Positions 28,366-34,914 of a stretch of DNA of 64,000 bases are shown piece after piece. The stretch's first letter is position 1. Each line of letters starts with the position of its first letter. The stretch comes from Dermabacteraceae bacterium TAE3-ERU5 (GTDB taxonomy: Bacteria; Actinomycetota; Actinomycetes; Actinomycetales; Dermabacteraceae): positions 186,001 through 250,000 of the forward strand of contig JAHUUK010000003.1 of assembly GCA_019218375.1 (NCBI GenBank). Direction: 5' to 3'. The position numbers and the translations under genes were made by a program. The notes under the pieces are model-generated. The model did no database searches and was not told the DNA's origin. It saw only the letters and a list, made by a program, of their open reading frames with translations.

Positions 28366-28441
28366 ATCTAACCTGGGCGGGGTGGCTTGATGTGGGGTAG
28401 CGTCAATGCTGACACAGGCTCATAGTTTAGGAGTTTTGCTA

Positions 28442-29311
28442 ATGCGCCCGCCCATAGCTCTCAGTGTTGCCGGTTCCGACCCCAGCGGCGGAGCTGGAAT
28501 CCAGGCCGATCTGAAAACCTTTACCGCCCTCGGCGTCTACGGCTGCGCCGTGGTTACCTCCCTGACCGCGCAAAACACGCAGGGCGTGCAGGGCGTGCAG
28601 AGCGTTTCCGGGGACTTCGTGGCCGCGCAGCTGACCTCCGTGCTGGACGATTTGCCGGTGCAGGCAACCAAGGTAGGGATGCTTGCCAACGCGGAAATTG
28701 CGAGCGCGGTAGCGGACGTGTTTACGCGGCGGCGCGCCGACCTGGGCAGGCTGGTGTTGGATCCGGTAATGATCGCTACCAGCGGGGACCGGCTGCTGGA
28801 TGAGGCGGCAATTAGCGTGCTTACCCAGCGCATCATTCCGTTGGCCGACGTAATCACGCCGAACCTGCACGAGGCCGCCTACCTGCTGGGGGCAGACCTG
28901 GCGACCGACGTGGACGAGATGCGGGAGCAGGCCGACGAACTGCTAGCGCTGGGGGCGCGCGCCGTGCTGCTTAAAGGCGGCCACCTGCGCGGACGCGAGG
29001 TGGTGGACGTCTACCGGGACGGTGAACGCACCGAACTGCTGCGCGGCACCATGTTCACCACGCAAAACACGCACGGCACCGGCTGCACGCTGTCCTCCGC
29101 GATCGCCGCACAGTTCGCGCGGGTAGCGCGGCTTGCGCAAATGGAGCGCGAAGCCGGCACGCAACCGCCCGCGAGCGACGACGTGGTGGCGATTGCCAGC
29201 GCACGCGAATACCTGGCCAGCGCCATCGAAAACGCGATTGATTGGCGGCTTTCTAAGACCCCGGAAAGCGGGCACGGCCCGGTAAACCACCTGATCACAG
29301 TAGGAGCGTGA
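28442..29311 (+). CDS. thiD: Hydroxymethylpyrimidine/phosphomethylpyrimidine kinase
   Basis: Phosphorylates HMP and HMP-P for thiamine synthesis or salvage. 289 residues, ribokinase-like fold: [22 protein letters not shown] at the N-terminus, [24 protein letters not shown], and the anion hole with catalytic Asp region [18 protein letters not shown] 28442 is chosen from AGGAG at 28429-28433; the open frame begins at 28406 but the extra residues are not family-like. tenA starts 7 bases after its stop. No THI-box (TPP riboswitch) is visible in the 76 bases upstream. Confidence 0.94.
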
Positions 29312-29318
29312 AAAATAG

Positions 29319-30005
29319 ATGCGTGAGCTGACCCCCGCCGGGCCAATCACCGCAGAACTGTGGCAGGCCGCCACCCAGATCCGTTCCCGCATCTCTGCCC
29401 TGCCCTTTCTGGAGCAGCTTGCCGACGGCACCCTAGCGCCGCGCATATTCGTGAACTACCTGCAACAGGACGAGTTTTATTTGGCGTCCTACGCGCGGGC
29501 GCTGGCGATGCTCGCGACGCGCGCCTACACGTCGGAATCGGCCGAGTTTTGGGCGCGTAGTGCCAGTGAAGCGGTCACCGCGGAACGCGCCCTGCACGAT
29601 GACCTATTCAACGACCCGCATCTAAGCGGCCTGATCCGCCCGGAAGTGGCTTCGCCAACCACCCGCGCCTACGCTAATTTCATGCTCGCCACCTGTGCTT
29701 TTGAACCGTACCCGGTGGCTGCGGCAGCGGTTTTGCCCTGTTACTGGGTGTATGCGGAAGTCGGGGCCGAGCTTGCTGCACGGGCCAAAACGGCTGCCGG
29801 TCATCCTTACGCCGCCTGGGTCACCGCATACGATGATGCGGAGTTTCGCGAGATCGCCCAGCGCGCGATAAACGAGGTGGAATTGGCCTGCACGGGCCTC
29901 AGTGAAGCGCTACATGGCAAGATTAAAACTGTTTTTCTGGACGCCACCCGCTACGAAGAGCTGTTTTGGCTTTCGGCGATGGAATGCGAACAGTGGCAGC
30001 TATAG
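29319..30005 (+). CDS. tenA: TenA-family aminopyrimidine aminohydrolase (thiaminase II)
   Basis: A 228-residue all-helical protein. TenA salvages the HMP moiety from degraded thiamine. The nucleophilic Cys is at 141 (VLPCYWVY), and FVNYLQQDEFYLASYARALA, TAERALHDDLF and the C-terminal DATRYEELFWLSAMECEQW contain the usual acidic and aromatic active-site residues. With ThiD next door, it forms a two-step HMP salvage module. It ends 15 bases before the oligopeptidase, whose AGGAGG overlaps the tenA stop region. Confidence 0.93.
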   Translation: MRELTPAGPITAELWQAATQIRSRISALPFLEQLADGTLAPRIFVNYLQQDEFYLASYARALAMLATRAYTSESAEFWARSASEAVTAERALHDDLFNDPHLSGLIRPEVASPTTRAYANFMLATCAFEPYPVAAAAVLPCYWVYAEVGAELAARAKTAAGHPYAAWVTAYDDAEFREIAQRAINEVELACTGLSEALHGKIKTVFLDATRYEELFWLSAMECEQWQL

Positions 30006-30020
30006 GAGGAAACTGACGAC

Positions 30021-32126
30021 ATGCGCGAAAACCTGCGGCCCGCCCTACCCGCCAACGACGGCAGCAGTGACCCCTGGCTGTGGCTGGAAGAGATCGAATC
30101 GCCGCGGGCGCTGGATTGGGTGCGCGAACATAACCGCAGTTCCGAGCAGGAAATAGACGCCGACGGGCTGAGCGATATTTTCGCCGCGCAGGTGAAGGAA
30201 ATCCTGGATTCTAGCGAACGCATCCCGCACGTCGTAAAACGCGGCGAATACGCCTACAACTTCTGGCAGGACGAAGCGCACCCCAAAGGTATCTGGCGCC
30301 GCGCCCCGTTTAGCGAATACGCCGCGGGAAACCCGACCTGGGATGTGCTGCTTGACGTAGACGCGCTAAACCGCGAAGAGGGCGAAGACTGGGTTTGGCA
30401 CGGGGCGTCGCTGCTGCGCGAAAACGGCACCTACCCGCTCGCTCTCATCTCTCTATCCCACGGAGGCAGTGATGCGGACGTAACGCGAGAGTTCGACCTC
30501 GTGGCCCGCCGCTTCGTTCCCGAAAGCGAGGGCGGGTTTTTCCGGCCCGCCGCGAAGGGCGAGCTTTCCTGGATAGACCGCGACAGCGTCACCGTCTACA
30601 CCGATTTTGGCCCCGATTCGCTCACCCTTTCGGGCTACGCACGCCAGGGGAGGATCTGGCGGCGCGGCCAGGCCCTAACAGACGCGGAAATGGTGGCGCA
30701 GGCCGGAGAGGACGATAACGCGCTCGCTATCTGGCACGAACAAACCCCCGGTTACGAACGCACCTGGGTAAACGTCAGCCACACCTTCTACACCTCCACC
30801 ACATACCTGCTGCGGGACGGCGCGCCCCAGCGCATAGACGTGCCCGACCACGCGCAGGTGTCGGCCTTCCGCGACACCCTGCTGATCCTGCCGCGTAAGG
30901 ACTGGGAACTGAACGGCACCACCTATCTGGCGGGCAGCCTTCTAGCTACCTCGCTCACCGCTTACCTAGCGGGGGAGCGCGAAGTGCAGCCGCTCTTCAC
31001 TCCCGACTCCGCCCGCGTGCTGCAGGACCTGTGCGTAACCGCAAACTACCTGCTGCTCACCCTTTCCGAGCACGTAAACACCCGCCTCCACGCCGTCTGG
31101 CACGACGGCGAAGACTGGGTGCAGGCACCCGTTTTCACCAAGCTAACGGGAACCGTGAGCGCCCGCGCCGTGGACCGAGAGGTAAGCGACGAGGTCTGGC
31201 TGACCGCCGCCGGATTCCTTTCCCCGGCCTCCCTCTATCTGGGGGATCTGGGGGGCGTCTCCTCCGGCGAAGGCAGCAGCCAGCGGCTCCTGCGGAGCGA
31301 ACCCAGCCACTTTTCGGCAGATGGGCTGCGGGTTGAACAGCACTTCGCGCTCAGCGACGACGGCACCCGTATCCCCTACTACCAGGTCGGCCCCGAAAAC
31401 CCGCACCCTGAGGCGCCGACCCTGCTTTACGGCTACGGCGGTTTTGAGGTTTCGCTGCAGCCCGCCTACTACGCCAGCATCGGAAAGACCTGGTGCGAAC
31501 GCGGCGGCACCTTCGTGCTGGCCAACATTCGCGGCGGCGGTGAATACGGTCCGCGCTGGCACCAGGCCGCCCTGCGCGAAAAGCGCCCCCGCGCCTACGA
31601 AGATTTCGCGGCGGTAGCCAAGGACCTCATCGCGCGCGGCGTAACGCAGCCCTCCCGCCTGGCCTGCCAGGGCGGCAGCAACGGCGGGCTGCTCACCGGC
31701 AACATGCTGGCCAGCTATCCAGAACTGTTCGGGGCCATCGTGATTCAGGTGCCGCTTATCGACATGAAGCGGTACACGAAACTGCTCGCGGGGTATTCCT
31801 GGATGGCGGAATACGGCGACCCCGAGGGAGAAGACTGGGACTACCTGCGTAATTACAGCCCCTATCACCTGCTCGATGAGGCTACCGAATACCCGCCCAC
31901 GCTGGTGACTACCTCCACGCGAGACGATCGGGTGCACCCCGGCCACGCCCGCAAACTCGTGGCGGCGCTGGAAAGCATCGGCAAGAACGTGCGGCTGTGG
32001 GAGAACGTCGAAGGCGGTCACGGCGGCGCCGCAGATAATGCCCAGCGTGCCCGCATGACCGCCCTAATGATGGCGTTCCTGTGGCAGCAAGTGGGCGCGG
32101 GCGCGCCCGGAAGCGCGACAGAGTGA
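30021..32126 (+). CDS. Prolyl oligopeptidase family serine peptidase (S9A)
   Basis: 701 residues, full-length S9A enzyme: an N-terminal DPWLWLEEIESPRALDWV segment, a beta-propeller (~70-410) and a C-terminal hydrolase domain. Catalytic Ser553 is in GGSNGG, the Asp is in STRDDRVHP and His667 is in EGGHGGA. No signal peptide, so it is cytosolic and would cut short peptides after Pro or basic residues (oligopeptidase B-like specificity cannot be excluded). RBS AGGAGG at 30005-30010. The stop overlaps the next gene as GTGA. Confidence 0.93.
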   Translation: MRENLRPALPANDGSSDPWLWLEEIESPRALDWVREHNRSSEQEIDADGLSDIFAAQVKEILDSSERIPHVVKRGEYAYNFWQDEAHPKGIWRRAPFSEYAAGNPTWDVLLDVDALNREEGEDWVWHGASLLRENGTYPLALISLSHGGSDADVTREFDLVARRFVPESEGGFFRPAAKGELSWIDRDSVTVYTDFGPDSLTLSGYARQGRIWRRGQALTDAEMVAQAGEDDNALAIWHEQTPGYERTWVNVSHTFYTSTTYLLRDGAPQRIDVPDHAQVSAFRDTLLILPRKDWELNGTTYLAGSLLATSLTAYLAGEREVQPLFTPDSARVLQDLCVTANYLLLTLSEHVNTRLHAVWHDGEDWVQAPVFTKLTGTVSARAVDREVSDEVWLTAAGFLSPASLYLGDLGGVSSGEGSSQRLLRSEPSHFSADGLRVEQHFALSDDGTRIPYYQVGPENPHPEAPTLLYGYGGFEVSLQPAYYASIGKTWCERGGTFVLANIRGGGEYGPRWHQAALREKRPRAYEDFAAVAKDLIARGVTQPSRLACQGGSNGGLLTGNMLASYPELFGAIVIQVPLIDMKRYTKLLAGYSWMAEYGDPEGEDWDYLRNYSPYHLLDEATEYPPTLVTTSTRDDRVHPGHARKLVAALESIGKNVRLWENVEGGHGGAADNAQRARMTALMMAFLWQQVGAGAPGSATE

Positions 32127-33439
32127 GGCAAATCAGGCACGACAGGCTCCGCCAGGACGAACTGCTGCTGATCCGTAACGACATCTTCACGGTTTACCGG
32201 CCCGTGGAAGAAGGCGCGGCGCCGCTGTTTCCCCTGCGCTACGCCCGCACCCGGCCGGGAAACGAAAGGGTGCCCGCGCTGATAGTGCCCGGCGGTCCCG
32301 GCACGGCCTCCGTGCTGCCCTTCGACCAGGCCAGGAAACTGTTTGCGGGGCGCGGTATCGACGCCGTGATGATGGAACATCGCGGCGTAGGCCTTTCCCG
32401 GCTGGACGCACGCGGCAGGCAAATTCCCCCCGCCGCGATCACCACCGACGCGGTGGTGGCGGACATGCGCGCCGTCCTCGACCATGCGCGCATCCCGCGC
32501 GCCTGCCTCTACGGCACCGGATACGGCGCCTATCTCTGCCTGGCGTTTGCGCTGCGCTACCCGGAACGCACCGATTCCCTCGTACTTGATTCCCCACTGG
32601 TGGCGGCCAGCGATCAGGTTTGGTCGCGCCGCGTGCTGCGCGAAAAACTCTGGTCGCGCCCCGGAGAAAACCCGCTCGCGGCGCGGGTGCGGGATCTGGT
32701 GGCCGACGGCACGTTAGACCCGCTAGAAGCGGGGCACGGCCTACGTGCGGTACACGAAATTGGTGGCCCGGCGGCGGTGGAAAAACTCATCGGTCTGCTC
32801 GGCGAAGCCGGTCCCGGTCTAACCTGGACGCTGATCGTGGCGGCCATGAAACAGCACTTCTTCAGCCACGCCCCCTACGTGCAAGAAAACGATCTGCTGC
32901 ACGACTTAGCGTTCAGGGAACTGGGGCGCGGCAGCTACGCCGACGGCCTACCGCTAGACACCGCCAGCCCGCTGATGCCGATTCCCAGCCCCGCCGCCGG
33001 GCCGCTGCTTGCCCCCGATGGGCACTGGGACAAGCTTTCGCAAATCCGGGTGCCGGTAACCGTGCTGTCGGGCACCTGGGACGTTACGTGCCCGCCCGAA
33101 CTAGCCGCGGAAGCAGCCCGACGCATTCCGCAGGCGCAGCTAATTCGCGTTCCCGAAACCGGCTTCAGCGTTCTGGATGCCCGCGCGGGAGCCGCCGCCA
33201 TCGCAACCCAGTGGACGCTGCGGGGATCGGCCGCGGAACTGGCTAGCAGGGAAGATGAGCTGCTCACCCTGCCGCGCACGGCGAGCGGGCAGGTGCTAAA
33301 CGGGTCGGTGCAGCTCGGGTTGGCCGCAGAAAGCCTCAGCCCTTTACGTTGGCGCATACAGCGCGCCAAAGTCAGACGCGCCCAGGACCCGGGCGCGCGC
33401 CGCCGGAACCGTCGCGCACACGCGCAAGGAAGACGATAA
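32123..33439 (+). CDS. Alpha/beta-hydrolase fold protein lacking catalytic Ser and His
   Basis: 438 residues, of the S33 proline-iminopeptidase-like group by overall layout: oxyanion loop IVPGGPGTAS, MEHRGVGLSRLD and a cap region. The nucleophile elbow reads LYGTGYGAYLCLAFALRYPER, where relatives have G-x-S-Y-G, so Ser is replaced by Gly133. Asp320 (SGTWDVTCPPE) is kept. The usual G-H-S near the C-terminus reads ETGFSVLD with Phe348. It is full length, uninterrupted and coupled on both sides (GTGA upstream, TAATG downstream), which suggests a maintained non-enzymatic function rather than a dying gene. Cytosolic, with no signal sequence seen. Confidence 0.85.
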   Translation: MRQIRHDRLRQDELLLIRNDIFTVYRPVEEGAAPLFPLRYARTRPGNERVPALIVPGGPGTASVLPFDQARKLFAGRGIDAVMMEHRGVGLSRLDARGRQIPPAAITTDAVVADMRAVLDHARIPRACLYGTGYGAYLCLAFALRYPERTDSLVLDSPLVAASDQVWSRRVLREKLWSRPGENPLAARVRDLVADGTLDPLEAGHGLRAVHEIGGPAAVEKLIGLLGEAGPGLTWTLIVAAMKQHFFSHAPYVQENDLLHDLAFRELGRGSYADGLPLDTASPLMPIPSPAAGPLLAPDGHWDKLSQIRVPVTVLSGTWDVTCPPELAAEAARRIPQAQLIRVPETGFSVLDARAGAAAIATQWTLRGSAAELASREDELLTLPRTASGQVLNGSVQLGLAAESLSPLRWRIQRAKVRRAQDPGARRRNRRAHAQGRR

Positions 33440-34914
33440 TGACGCAAGAAACCCGCCGTCCCTGGCTGGCGCTCGCCGTGCTGGTGATGCCGGTGCTGCT
33501 CATCAGCATCGATATGTCGGTACTGAGCATCGCGATTCCGGCGATCAGCGAAGACCTGCAACCCTCCACCACCCAGCTGCTGTGGATAGTGGATATTTAT
33601 TCGCTCCTCCTTGCCGGGCTGCTCATCCCGATGGGGTACTTGGGGGACACGATAGGCAGGCGGAAACTGCTGCTGAGCGGGGCGTTAGTGTTTGGCCTGG
33701 CATCGCTGGGGGCGGCCTTTGCGCGCAGCCCGGAAATGTTGCTGGCGGCGCGTTTGGTGCTGGGGATCGGCGGGGCCACCCTGATGCCCGCCACCCTGGC
33801 TTTGCTGCGGGTGATCTTCCCCGACCCCGATAGACGCAGGATGGCGATAGCGGTCTGGGCGGCGGCGTTCTCGGTAGGTGCGGCCGCCGGTCCGCTGTTT
33901 GGCGGCATTTTGCTGGGGGCGTTCAGCTGGGGAGCGGTGTTCTTAATCAACGTGCCGGTCATGCTGGTATTCCTGGTGGCCGCCCGCCTGCTGGTTCCCG
34001 AATCGCGGCCCGGGGCCGGGGCGGGGATCGATCTGCTTTCGGTATTTCTGGTGCTGACAGGGATGATCGGCGCTGTGTGGAGCGTAAAAGAGGCGGTGCA
34101 CGCCCCCCACTGGGGAATCGCCCCGGTTGCCGTGGCCGCGCTGGCGCTGCTGGTGGTGTTCGTGAGGCGACAGCGGACCCTCGCCAACCCGTTGCTGGAA
34201 CTTTCCCTATTTTCACTGCCGGAATTTCGCGGCGCTCTTGCCACCAACACCGTGATGATTTTTAGCGTGGTCGGCGTGATGTTCTTCCTGCCCCAGTATT
34301 TCCTTTTAGTTTGGGAAATGACCCCCTTCAAAGTGGGGCTTTACCTCTTGCCGCTCGCCATTTCCACGGTGGCCGGGGCAATGCTTTCTCCGCTTTTGCT
34401 GCGCTTCTTTACGGCGCGCACGGTTATTAGCGGCGGCCTGCTTCTCGCCGCTAGCGGTTTAACCCTGTGCGCTGCATTAATACTTTCTGAAGGTTCGCTT
34501 ATTGCGGTTTGTGCGGGAACTGTTTTGCTCGGAATCGGTTCGGGATTCGCGGAGACGCTGACTAACGACGTCATCTTGGAAGCCGCCCCGGAGGAACGCG
34601 CAGGGGCGGCGTCGGCCATTTCCGAGACGGGCTACGAGCTGGGCGGCGCCCTGGGAACAGCCCTGCTGGGCAGCCTTGGCATGGGCATTTACGCGACAAA
34701 ACTGGCCGCGGCGCTGCCCGAGCTGCCGCACGCGGCCCTGCAAACCCTGGGCGGTGCGCACCGGGTAGCGGAGGGCACGAAAACGGCTTACTCGCTGGTA
34801 ACCGAAGCGAATCATGCTTTTGCGGCGGGTAGCGCCGCAGCGTGTCTCGCGGCGGGCATATTATGCGCCGCAATAGCGTTTTACGCCGCTTATGCCCTTC
34901 GTGTGCGCGCGTGA
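33439..34914 (+). CDS. MFS transporter, DHA2 (EmrB/QacA-like) drug exporter
   Basis: 491 residues with about 14 hydrophobic helices, proton-driven efflux. DHA2 markers: LLISIDMSVLSIAIPAI in helix 1 (motif D1 region), the motif A loop GYLGDTIGRRKLLL, RLVLGIGGATLMPATLAL (motif B) and VGAAAGPLFGGILLG (motif C). ATG is joined to the previous stop by TAATG. Last gene of the thiD-tenA-peptidase operon; it may export a compound related to the upstream enzymes (inference). No terminator is evident after it. Confidence 0.92.
   Translation: MTQETRRPWLALAVLVMPVLLISIDMSVLSIAIPAISEDLQPSTTQLLWIVDIYSLLLAGLLIPMGYLGDTIGRRKLLLSGALVFGLASLGAAFARSPEMLLAARLVLGIGGATLMPATLALLRVIFPDPDRRRMAIAVWAAAFSVGAAAGPLFGGILLGAFSWGAVFLINVPVMLVFLVAARLLVPESRPGAGAGIDLLSVFLVLTGMIGAVWSVKEAVHAPHWGIAPVAVAALALLVVFVRRQRTLANPLLELSLFSLPEFRGALATNTVMIFSVVGVMFFLPQYFLLVWEMTPFKVGLYLLPLAISTVAGAMLSPLLLRFFTARTVISGGLLLAASGLTLCAALILSEGSLIAVCAGTVLLGIGSGFAETLTNDVILEAAPEERAGAASAISETGYELGGALGTALLGSLGMGIYATKLAAALPELPHAALQTLGGAHRVAEGTKTAYSLVTEANHAFAAGSAAACLAAGILCAAIAFYAAYALRVRA

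Follow-up and report, generated by a model that had tools for sequence, protein, structure and literature searches.

Known Systems and the Locus Studied

Non-enzymatic proteins with the α/β-hydrolase fold are already known in both eukaryotes and bacteria. In the eukaryotic NDRG proteins, residues of the catalytic triad are replaced by non-reactive ones (PMC7022630), and DUF3530 (PF12048), described in Pseudomonas, is a bacterial family without the triad, with a conserved gene neighborhood and a proposed non-enzymatic role (PMC11878206). Here we describe a group of S33-type pseudoenzymes of the Dermabacteraceae, starting from a gene of Dermabacteraceae bacterium TAE3-ERU5 (assembly GCA_019218375.1, contig JAHUUK010000003.1, positions 186,001–250,000; this whole stretch of 64,000 nucleotides is referred to as the window). 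The 438-amino-acid product of window positions 32123–33439, named Q below, has lost both the catalytic Ser and the catalytic His; the Ser is also missing from most of its orthologs in the family, the protein is under purifying selection, and its gene lies downstream of a gene for an S9 prolyl-oligopeptidase-family protein (S9) in every Q-bearing genome. No publication on this S33 protein group was found in the open-access literature, among the matches listed.

The S33 prolyl aminopeptidases/proline iminopeptidases and the tripeptidyl-aminopeptidase group (PF12146, PF00561, PF08386) share with Q the fold, the GGPG loop, the EHRGxGxS strand, the GxxYG elbow, and the triad Asp. Pfam matches above the gathering score, to Abhydrolase_1 (48.2 bits, cut-off 25.8, E = 1.4e-12) and to Hydrolase_4, “Serine aminopeptidase, S33” (45.7 bits, cut-off 27, E = 6.7e-12), place Q among the S33-type α/β-hydrolase homologs, and the solved structures best matching it are those of a proline iminopeptidase and esterases. 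Unlike this group, the window protein has Gly for the catalytic Ser and Phe for the catalytic His, the Gly recurring in 40 out of 44 family orthologs, and its match to Abhydrolase_4 (PF08386) stays below the cut-off (18 vs. 21 bits).

With the NDRG proteins, Q shares the replacement of the triad in a kept fold, and it weakly matches Pfam Ndr in the elbow region. Membership in that family was nevertheless rejected (21.9 bits against a cut-off of 23.3); moreover, four scanned relatives of Q pass the cut-off (L003, 27.5; L039, 27.9; L041, 38.0; L090, 25.5 bits), and since L039 and L090 bear the Ser, the match reflects the fold rather than marks a lost triad. The iRhom pseudoproteases are membrane proteins with a fold unrelated to that of Q. 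As inactive protease relatives acting on the pathway of active rhomboids (PMC3149277), they resemble the role proposed below for Q, where the interaction with S9 would be the counterpart. DUF3530 is similar in being bacterial, in the lost triad, in the proposed non-enzymatic role, and in the conserved neighborhood, but it is another family, and the Pfam scan of the window protein gave no match to PF12048. Finally, the Asp-nucleophile α/β-hydrolases (epoxide hydrolase type; Cluster 64 in PMC11878206) are like two out of 44 orthologs in having an Asp nucleophile with His and Asp kept, and unlike the window protein and 39 other orthologs, which have Gly in this place.

Loss of Catalytic Residues in Q and Its Orthologs

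In both alignments of Q to solved hydrolases (two out of two, among the matches listed), Gly133 is aligned with the catalytic Ser and Phe348 with the His of the triad. Thus, of the residues of an active S33 serine peptidase, the window protein lacks the Ser of the GxSxG elbow and the His near the C-terminus of the domain and retains the Asp (Asp320). The initial annotation, made from the sequence alone, had reported both replacements, the remaining Asp320 and GGPG oxyanion loop, and an intact frame overlapping both neighboring genes; the codons (GGA and TTC), the loop at residues 57–60, and the overlaps, GTGA with the S9 stop (32123–32126) and TAATG with the downstream start (33439), bear out each of these statements. 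Without its nucleophile and base, a protein of this fold cannot act as an ordinary serine hydrolase, and, as both are lost, no such chemistry is left in the window protein.

We then compared orthologs across the Dermabacteraceae (NCBI genera Dermabacter, Brachybacterium, Devriesea, Helcobacillus), with genera coded so that g1 is the genus of the window, represented by two genomes in the collection (that of the window and G001, evidently the genome with the Q locus L031), and g2 is the largest one, conjecturally Brachybacterium. Q was detected in 44 out of 47 family genomes (E ≤ 1e-15) and not found in G044, G046, and G028; the latter is a fragmented, 88% complete assembly where S9 was not found either. 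A near-full-length single open frame is present in 42 out of 44 genomes. The remaining two, G029, with Q in pieces, and G033, where a contig end cuts Q, are included in the 44-genome counts and excluded from the alignment and tree, which comprise 42 family orthologs and 26 Ser-bearing homologs (68 proteins). In G029 (L051/L089), a single-contig, 85% complete genome, the frames of both Q and S9 are in pieces, possibly due to an assembly error.

The nucleophile position is occupied by Gly in 40 of the 44 Q-bearing genomes, by Asp in two (G034, locus L008; G016, locus L023), and by Ser in two (G045, locus L039; G042, locus L040), the Ser-bearing ones having a complete triad and the same gene order. 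The two Asp proteins combine the Asp nucleophile with Gly57, with an elbow as in the epoxide-hydrolase type. At positions 133/57, the 42 aligned orthologs have Gly/Asp (36), Gly/Gly (two, those of the window's genus), Asp/Gly (two), or Ser/Gly (two); hence Asp never occupies both positions, and exactly one Asp is present in 38 out of 40 aligned members without Ser, the window's genus having neither. Residue 320 is Asp in 40 aligned orthologs and Asn in two; at position 348, 40 of them have His and two (the window protein and L031) have Phe; across the 44 genomes, Phe348 is seen only in the two g1 genomes, with His in 41 others covered and one not covered.

These counts make Gly133 a family trait and Phe348 one confined to g1 (two out of two). 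The initial annotation had proposed to check the Gly/Phe pair for conservation in orthologs; as a unit, the pair is not supported, the Phe being genus-specific. A strain-specific loss, for which it had named orthologs with an intact triad as the sign, or a sequencing error is ruled out by the same codons at positions 133 and 348 in the second g1 genome, where Q is 90% identical, and by Gly in 40 out of 44 genomes: orthologs with a triad do exist (two out of 44, G042 and G045), whereas the loss is family-wide.

Outside the family, the Ser is universal among the proteins read. Among 396 genomes sampled from the order, matches at 1e-30 occurred in 63, of which 32 belong to the family, and Ser was present in 32 out of 32 matches from 31 non-family genomes; the 394 genomes sampled from the class included 22 with a match, and in the 19 new ones (labeled as the same class only) Ser was present in 19 out of 19. 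Combined, these draws, which are samples rather than full surveys and of which only the stronger matches were read, yield Ser in 51 out of 51 proteins and Gly133 in none, with Gly57 in all 50 covered there and His in all 49 covered at position 348; 20 of the 51 were used in the tree. Six paralogs at other loci within the family (L045–L050) likewise all have Ser, His, and GGPG.

Phylogeny and Probable Repeated Loss of the Nucleophile

The tree of 68 proteins was constructed after removal of the four trait columns and unites all 42 family proteins in a single starred clade. The protein of G042, which bears the Ser, joins three Gly-bearing ones from the same genus (100/98), and the Ser-bearing protein of G045 adjoins them (100/100); the S9 tree (34 rows) similarly unites G042 with three Gly members of its genus (99/99). 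A single clade of all 40 non-Ser proteins was rejected by the approximately unbiased (AU) test (p = 0.00096), whereas a clade of the window's genus with g2 was not (p = 0.366); as these groups were named after the tree was seen, the p-values are approximate. Given this rejection, at least two losses of the Ser are probable, unless a single loss was followed by two regains. The tree requires five changes at the nucleophile position, four at position 57, and one at the His. Two separate lineages, g2 and a subclade of g3, combine Asp57 with Gly133; the exchanged form, Asp133 with Gly57, occurs in two members of g2. The placement of the window's genus is unsure, because long branches meet there (program warning).

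Selection and Retained Residues

Comparison of the window with L031 (Nei–Gojobori) gave a ratio of nonsynonymous to synonymous substitution rates (dN/dS) of 0.074 for Q, 0.062 for S9, 0.084 for the tenA-like and 0.101 for the thiD-like gene, and 0.123 for the downstream major facilitator superfamily gene (MFS). Q is thus under purifying selection, and, with the catalytic Ser replaced across the orthologs (40 Gly and two Asp out of 44), its description as a maintained pseudoenzyme in the initial annotation is upheld. A long stem leads to the window's genus in the tree of Q (1.08 changes per column) and also in that of S9 (1.29); hence an acceleration special to Q is unsupported, and the fast evolution looks lineage-wide.

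Of the 37 columns invariant in the 26 Ser-bearing homologs, the window's genus retains 32, the five changes being S133G, H348F, L101I, V259L, and T323C. All 68 proteins share Glu85, Arg87, Tyr134, Gly135, and Glu255, and 41 out of 42 family members have Asp257. Along the chain, Glu255 and Asp257 come after the elbow and before the acid, presumably where S33 enzymes carry the cap. In the prolyl aminopeptidase from Serratia, Glu204 and Glu232 are involved in substrate recognition (PMC9147577), and by analogy Glu255 may be the equivalent of one of them; a residue-level match to glutamates of solved aminopeptidases was not obtained, the profile alignments (five of 162 matches) spanning only both domain ends.

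Conserved S9 and Non-Conserved MFS Neighbors

S9 was found in 46 out of 47 family genomes, and in all 44 with Q it lies upstream on the same strand, with 0–793 bases between the matches and with the motifs GGSNGG, DDRV, and GGHGG intact. The matches overlap or are at most 174 bases apart in 31 out of 44, and a possible Q start overlaps the S9 stop or lies within 32 bases of it in 20 out of 30 loci examined for starts. The place of Q downstream of the prolyl oligopeptidase gene that the initial annotation had pointed out is therefore conserved in all Q-bearing family genomes, but the other partner suggested there, the exporter, is rejected as a conserved partner: MFS stands beside Q in only two out of 44 genomes, both from the window's genus, with less than 1 kb of downstream sequence available in three out of 44.

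Where the S9–Q gap is long, a co-directional frame lies in it in both of two cases looked into (L059, 8147–8794, and L085, 8190–8852); the one scanned, that in L059, is a mycothiol-S-transferase (DinB superfamily).

Possible Functions of Q

We tentatively read Q as a maintained non-hydrolytic binding protein, with perhaps a peptide as the ligand, and as a partner of the S9 peptidase, giving this interpretation slightly less than an even chance. A binding partner is the most parsimonious explanation for the strong constraint, the carboxylates that were kept, and the overlap of Q with an S9 gene that is itself intact. The ancestor of Q would have been a working hydrolase of the S33 type, probably an aminopeptidase acting inside the cell, encoded behind the S9 oligopeptidase gene. 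In most Dermabacteraceae, the Ser nucleophile was replaced, with the fold residues, the cap-region carboxylates, and the place behind S9 kept, and in the window's genus the catalytic His was lost too. The residue losses, their conservation, the gene order, and the purifying selection are results of the analysis; co-expression of Q with S9, ligand binding, and a functional tie between the two are what we infer. In its former active site, Q could hold peptides or their termini without cutting them and, made in step with S9, may present, sequester, or sense its substrates or products.

Several observations weigh against this proposal. Of the 40 aligned members from other genera than that of the window, all 40 retain His348 and 38 retain Asp320, residues for which a pure binding protein would have no use. 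The S9 and Q matches are 685–793 bases apart in 13 out of 44 genomes, and G044 and G046 carry S9 without a detected Q, so S9 can do without it. In G044, the next same-strand frame of at least 150 amino acids after S9 encodes an MFS protein 50% identical to that of the window; in G046, S9 is divergent (44%), and no other neighbor from the window is near it. The enrichment of triad residues among the five changed columns is weak and post hoc (chance P = 0.042 for two or more of the three). Finally, an AlphaFold2 prediction for the window protein and one relative (a two-sequence alignment) reached a predicted local distance difference test score (pLDDT) of 33.3 and a predicted template modeling score (pTM) of 0.26, and was not used.

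The main rival follows from the kept His, which, together with the exchanging Asp, suggests that in the relatives outside the window's genus the pocket either remains catalytic or accommodates a charged group. It holds, as a rather unlikely possibility, that Q is a re-wired enzyme where the lost Ser is replaced by Asp57 of the oxyanion loop or Asp133 of the elbow, working with His348–Asp320 in a new reaction, the window's genus being a dead branch that lost the Asp or never had it. The Asp is indeed reciprocal between positions 57 and 133 across the 42 aligned orthologs, pairs with Gly133 at position 57 in two separate lineages, and is exchanged in two g2 members. Position 57 is, as we assume, a neighbor of the second oxyanion-hole residue. 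Such neighbors often contact the ligand in this fold (PMC7034887). But the independent events are few: on starred branches, three out of three independent Asp57/Gly133 pairs go in the same direction, too few for a conclusion (sign test p = 0.25), and one of the exchanged members, L008, sits at a weak node (82/13). In addition, Asp320 is replaced by Asn in two members, a pocket-facing side chain of Asp57 is presumed, and the re-wiring leaves the protein of the window itself unexplained.

A broader version, which we consider unlikely, has the S33 peptidase of the Dermabacteraceae rebuilt around a movable carboxylate: the Ser lost and exactly one Asp gained, in the oxyanion loop or the elbow, beside the kept His–Asp, with the window's genus in a further state, having neither Asp57/133 nor the His, where only binding would be left. 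Should the Asp exchange prove functional, this would represent a new active-site arrangement in a very large fold.

It is similarly improbable that Q is slowly decaying or moonlights in a role unrelated to S9, that is, persists for a structural or other purpose in a compact gene run, dispensable and on its way out. The failure to find Q in G044 and G046, though S9 is there, and the long stem leading to the window's genus could be expected in this case, but the low dN/dS, the likewise long S9 stem, and the one open frame over nearly the whole gene in all but G029 and G033 speak against it. Very improbable is a relocated catalysis in the window's genus via Cys323 or the genus-only His residues 245, 249, 260, and 301, which are fixed in both g1 genomes and occur at the respective columns in none of the 66 remaining aligned proteins, given that the sole genus-only Ser, Ser395, is near the C-terminus, residue 133, the nucleophile place of this fold, is Gly, and the new His residues appear, judging by their position along the chain, to be outside the catalytic-His loop.

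The family provides a natural series, from the active triad (G042, G045) through the loss of Ser with an Asp present (most members) and the loss of Ser and His (the window's genus) to genomes where the gene is not found (G044, G046), with the S9 gene throughout. This makes it testable how an enzyme gives up its activity and whether the resulting non-enzyme becomes the partner of an active one.

Other Features of the Locus

Coordinates of the described features are collected in Table 1.

Table 1. Features of the Q locus in the window.
Feature	Position	Strand	Remarks
thiD-like gene	28406..29311	+	same tight gene run, upstream of S9
tenA-like gene	29319..30005	+	same tight gene run, upstream of S9
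S9 prolyl-oligopeptidase-family gene	30021..32126	+	GGSNGG, DDRV, GGHGG motifs intact; conserved upstream gene
GTGA overlap, S9 stop with Q start	32123..32126	+	
Q, S33-like α/β-hydrolase pseudoenzyme	32123..33439	+	438 amino acids, GTG start
Oxyanion loop GGPG, residues 57–60	32291..32302	+	kept in the window; position 57 is Asp in 36/42 aligned family orthologs
Gly133 codon GGA	32519..32521	+	catalytic-Ser position
Glu255-x-Asp257	32885..32893	+	Glu255 in 42/42 aligned family orthologs and 26/26 Ser-bearing tree homologs
Asp320 codon	33080..33082	+	triad acid retained
Phe348 codon TTC	33164..33166	+	catalytic-His position
Basic C-terminal tail of Q	33347..33436	+	last 30 residues: 13 Lys/Arg, 1 Asp/Glu
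MFS gene	33439..34914	+	1-base overlap with the Q stop; drug-efflux-like from NCBIfam matches below cut-off

The C-terminal tail of Q is identical in L031. By eye, an Arg-rich tail like that of the window protein is present in 13 out of 13 g2 proteins inspected, with a “DP...R/K” stretch in nine of them; it takes another form in four g3/g5 proteins and is unrecognizable as such in 14 other Ser-bearing homologs inspected.

In G044, the minus-strand order (L112, 3052–7181) is S9 followed by MFS, with no Q found in between; further downstream lies a frame that is TetR-like as judged by eye. In the window, thiD/tenA-like genes of thiamine pyrimidine salvage lead into the S9/Q pair (28406–33439), with gaps of 7 and 15 bases, and the order thiD–tenA–S9–Q is also kept in some other members of the family.

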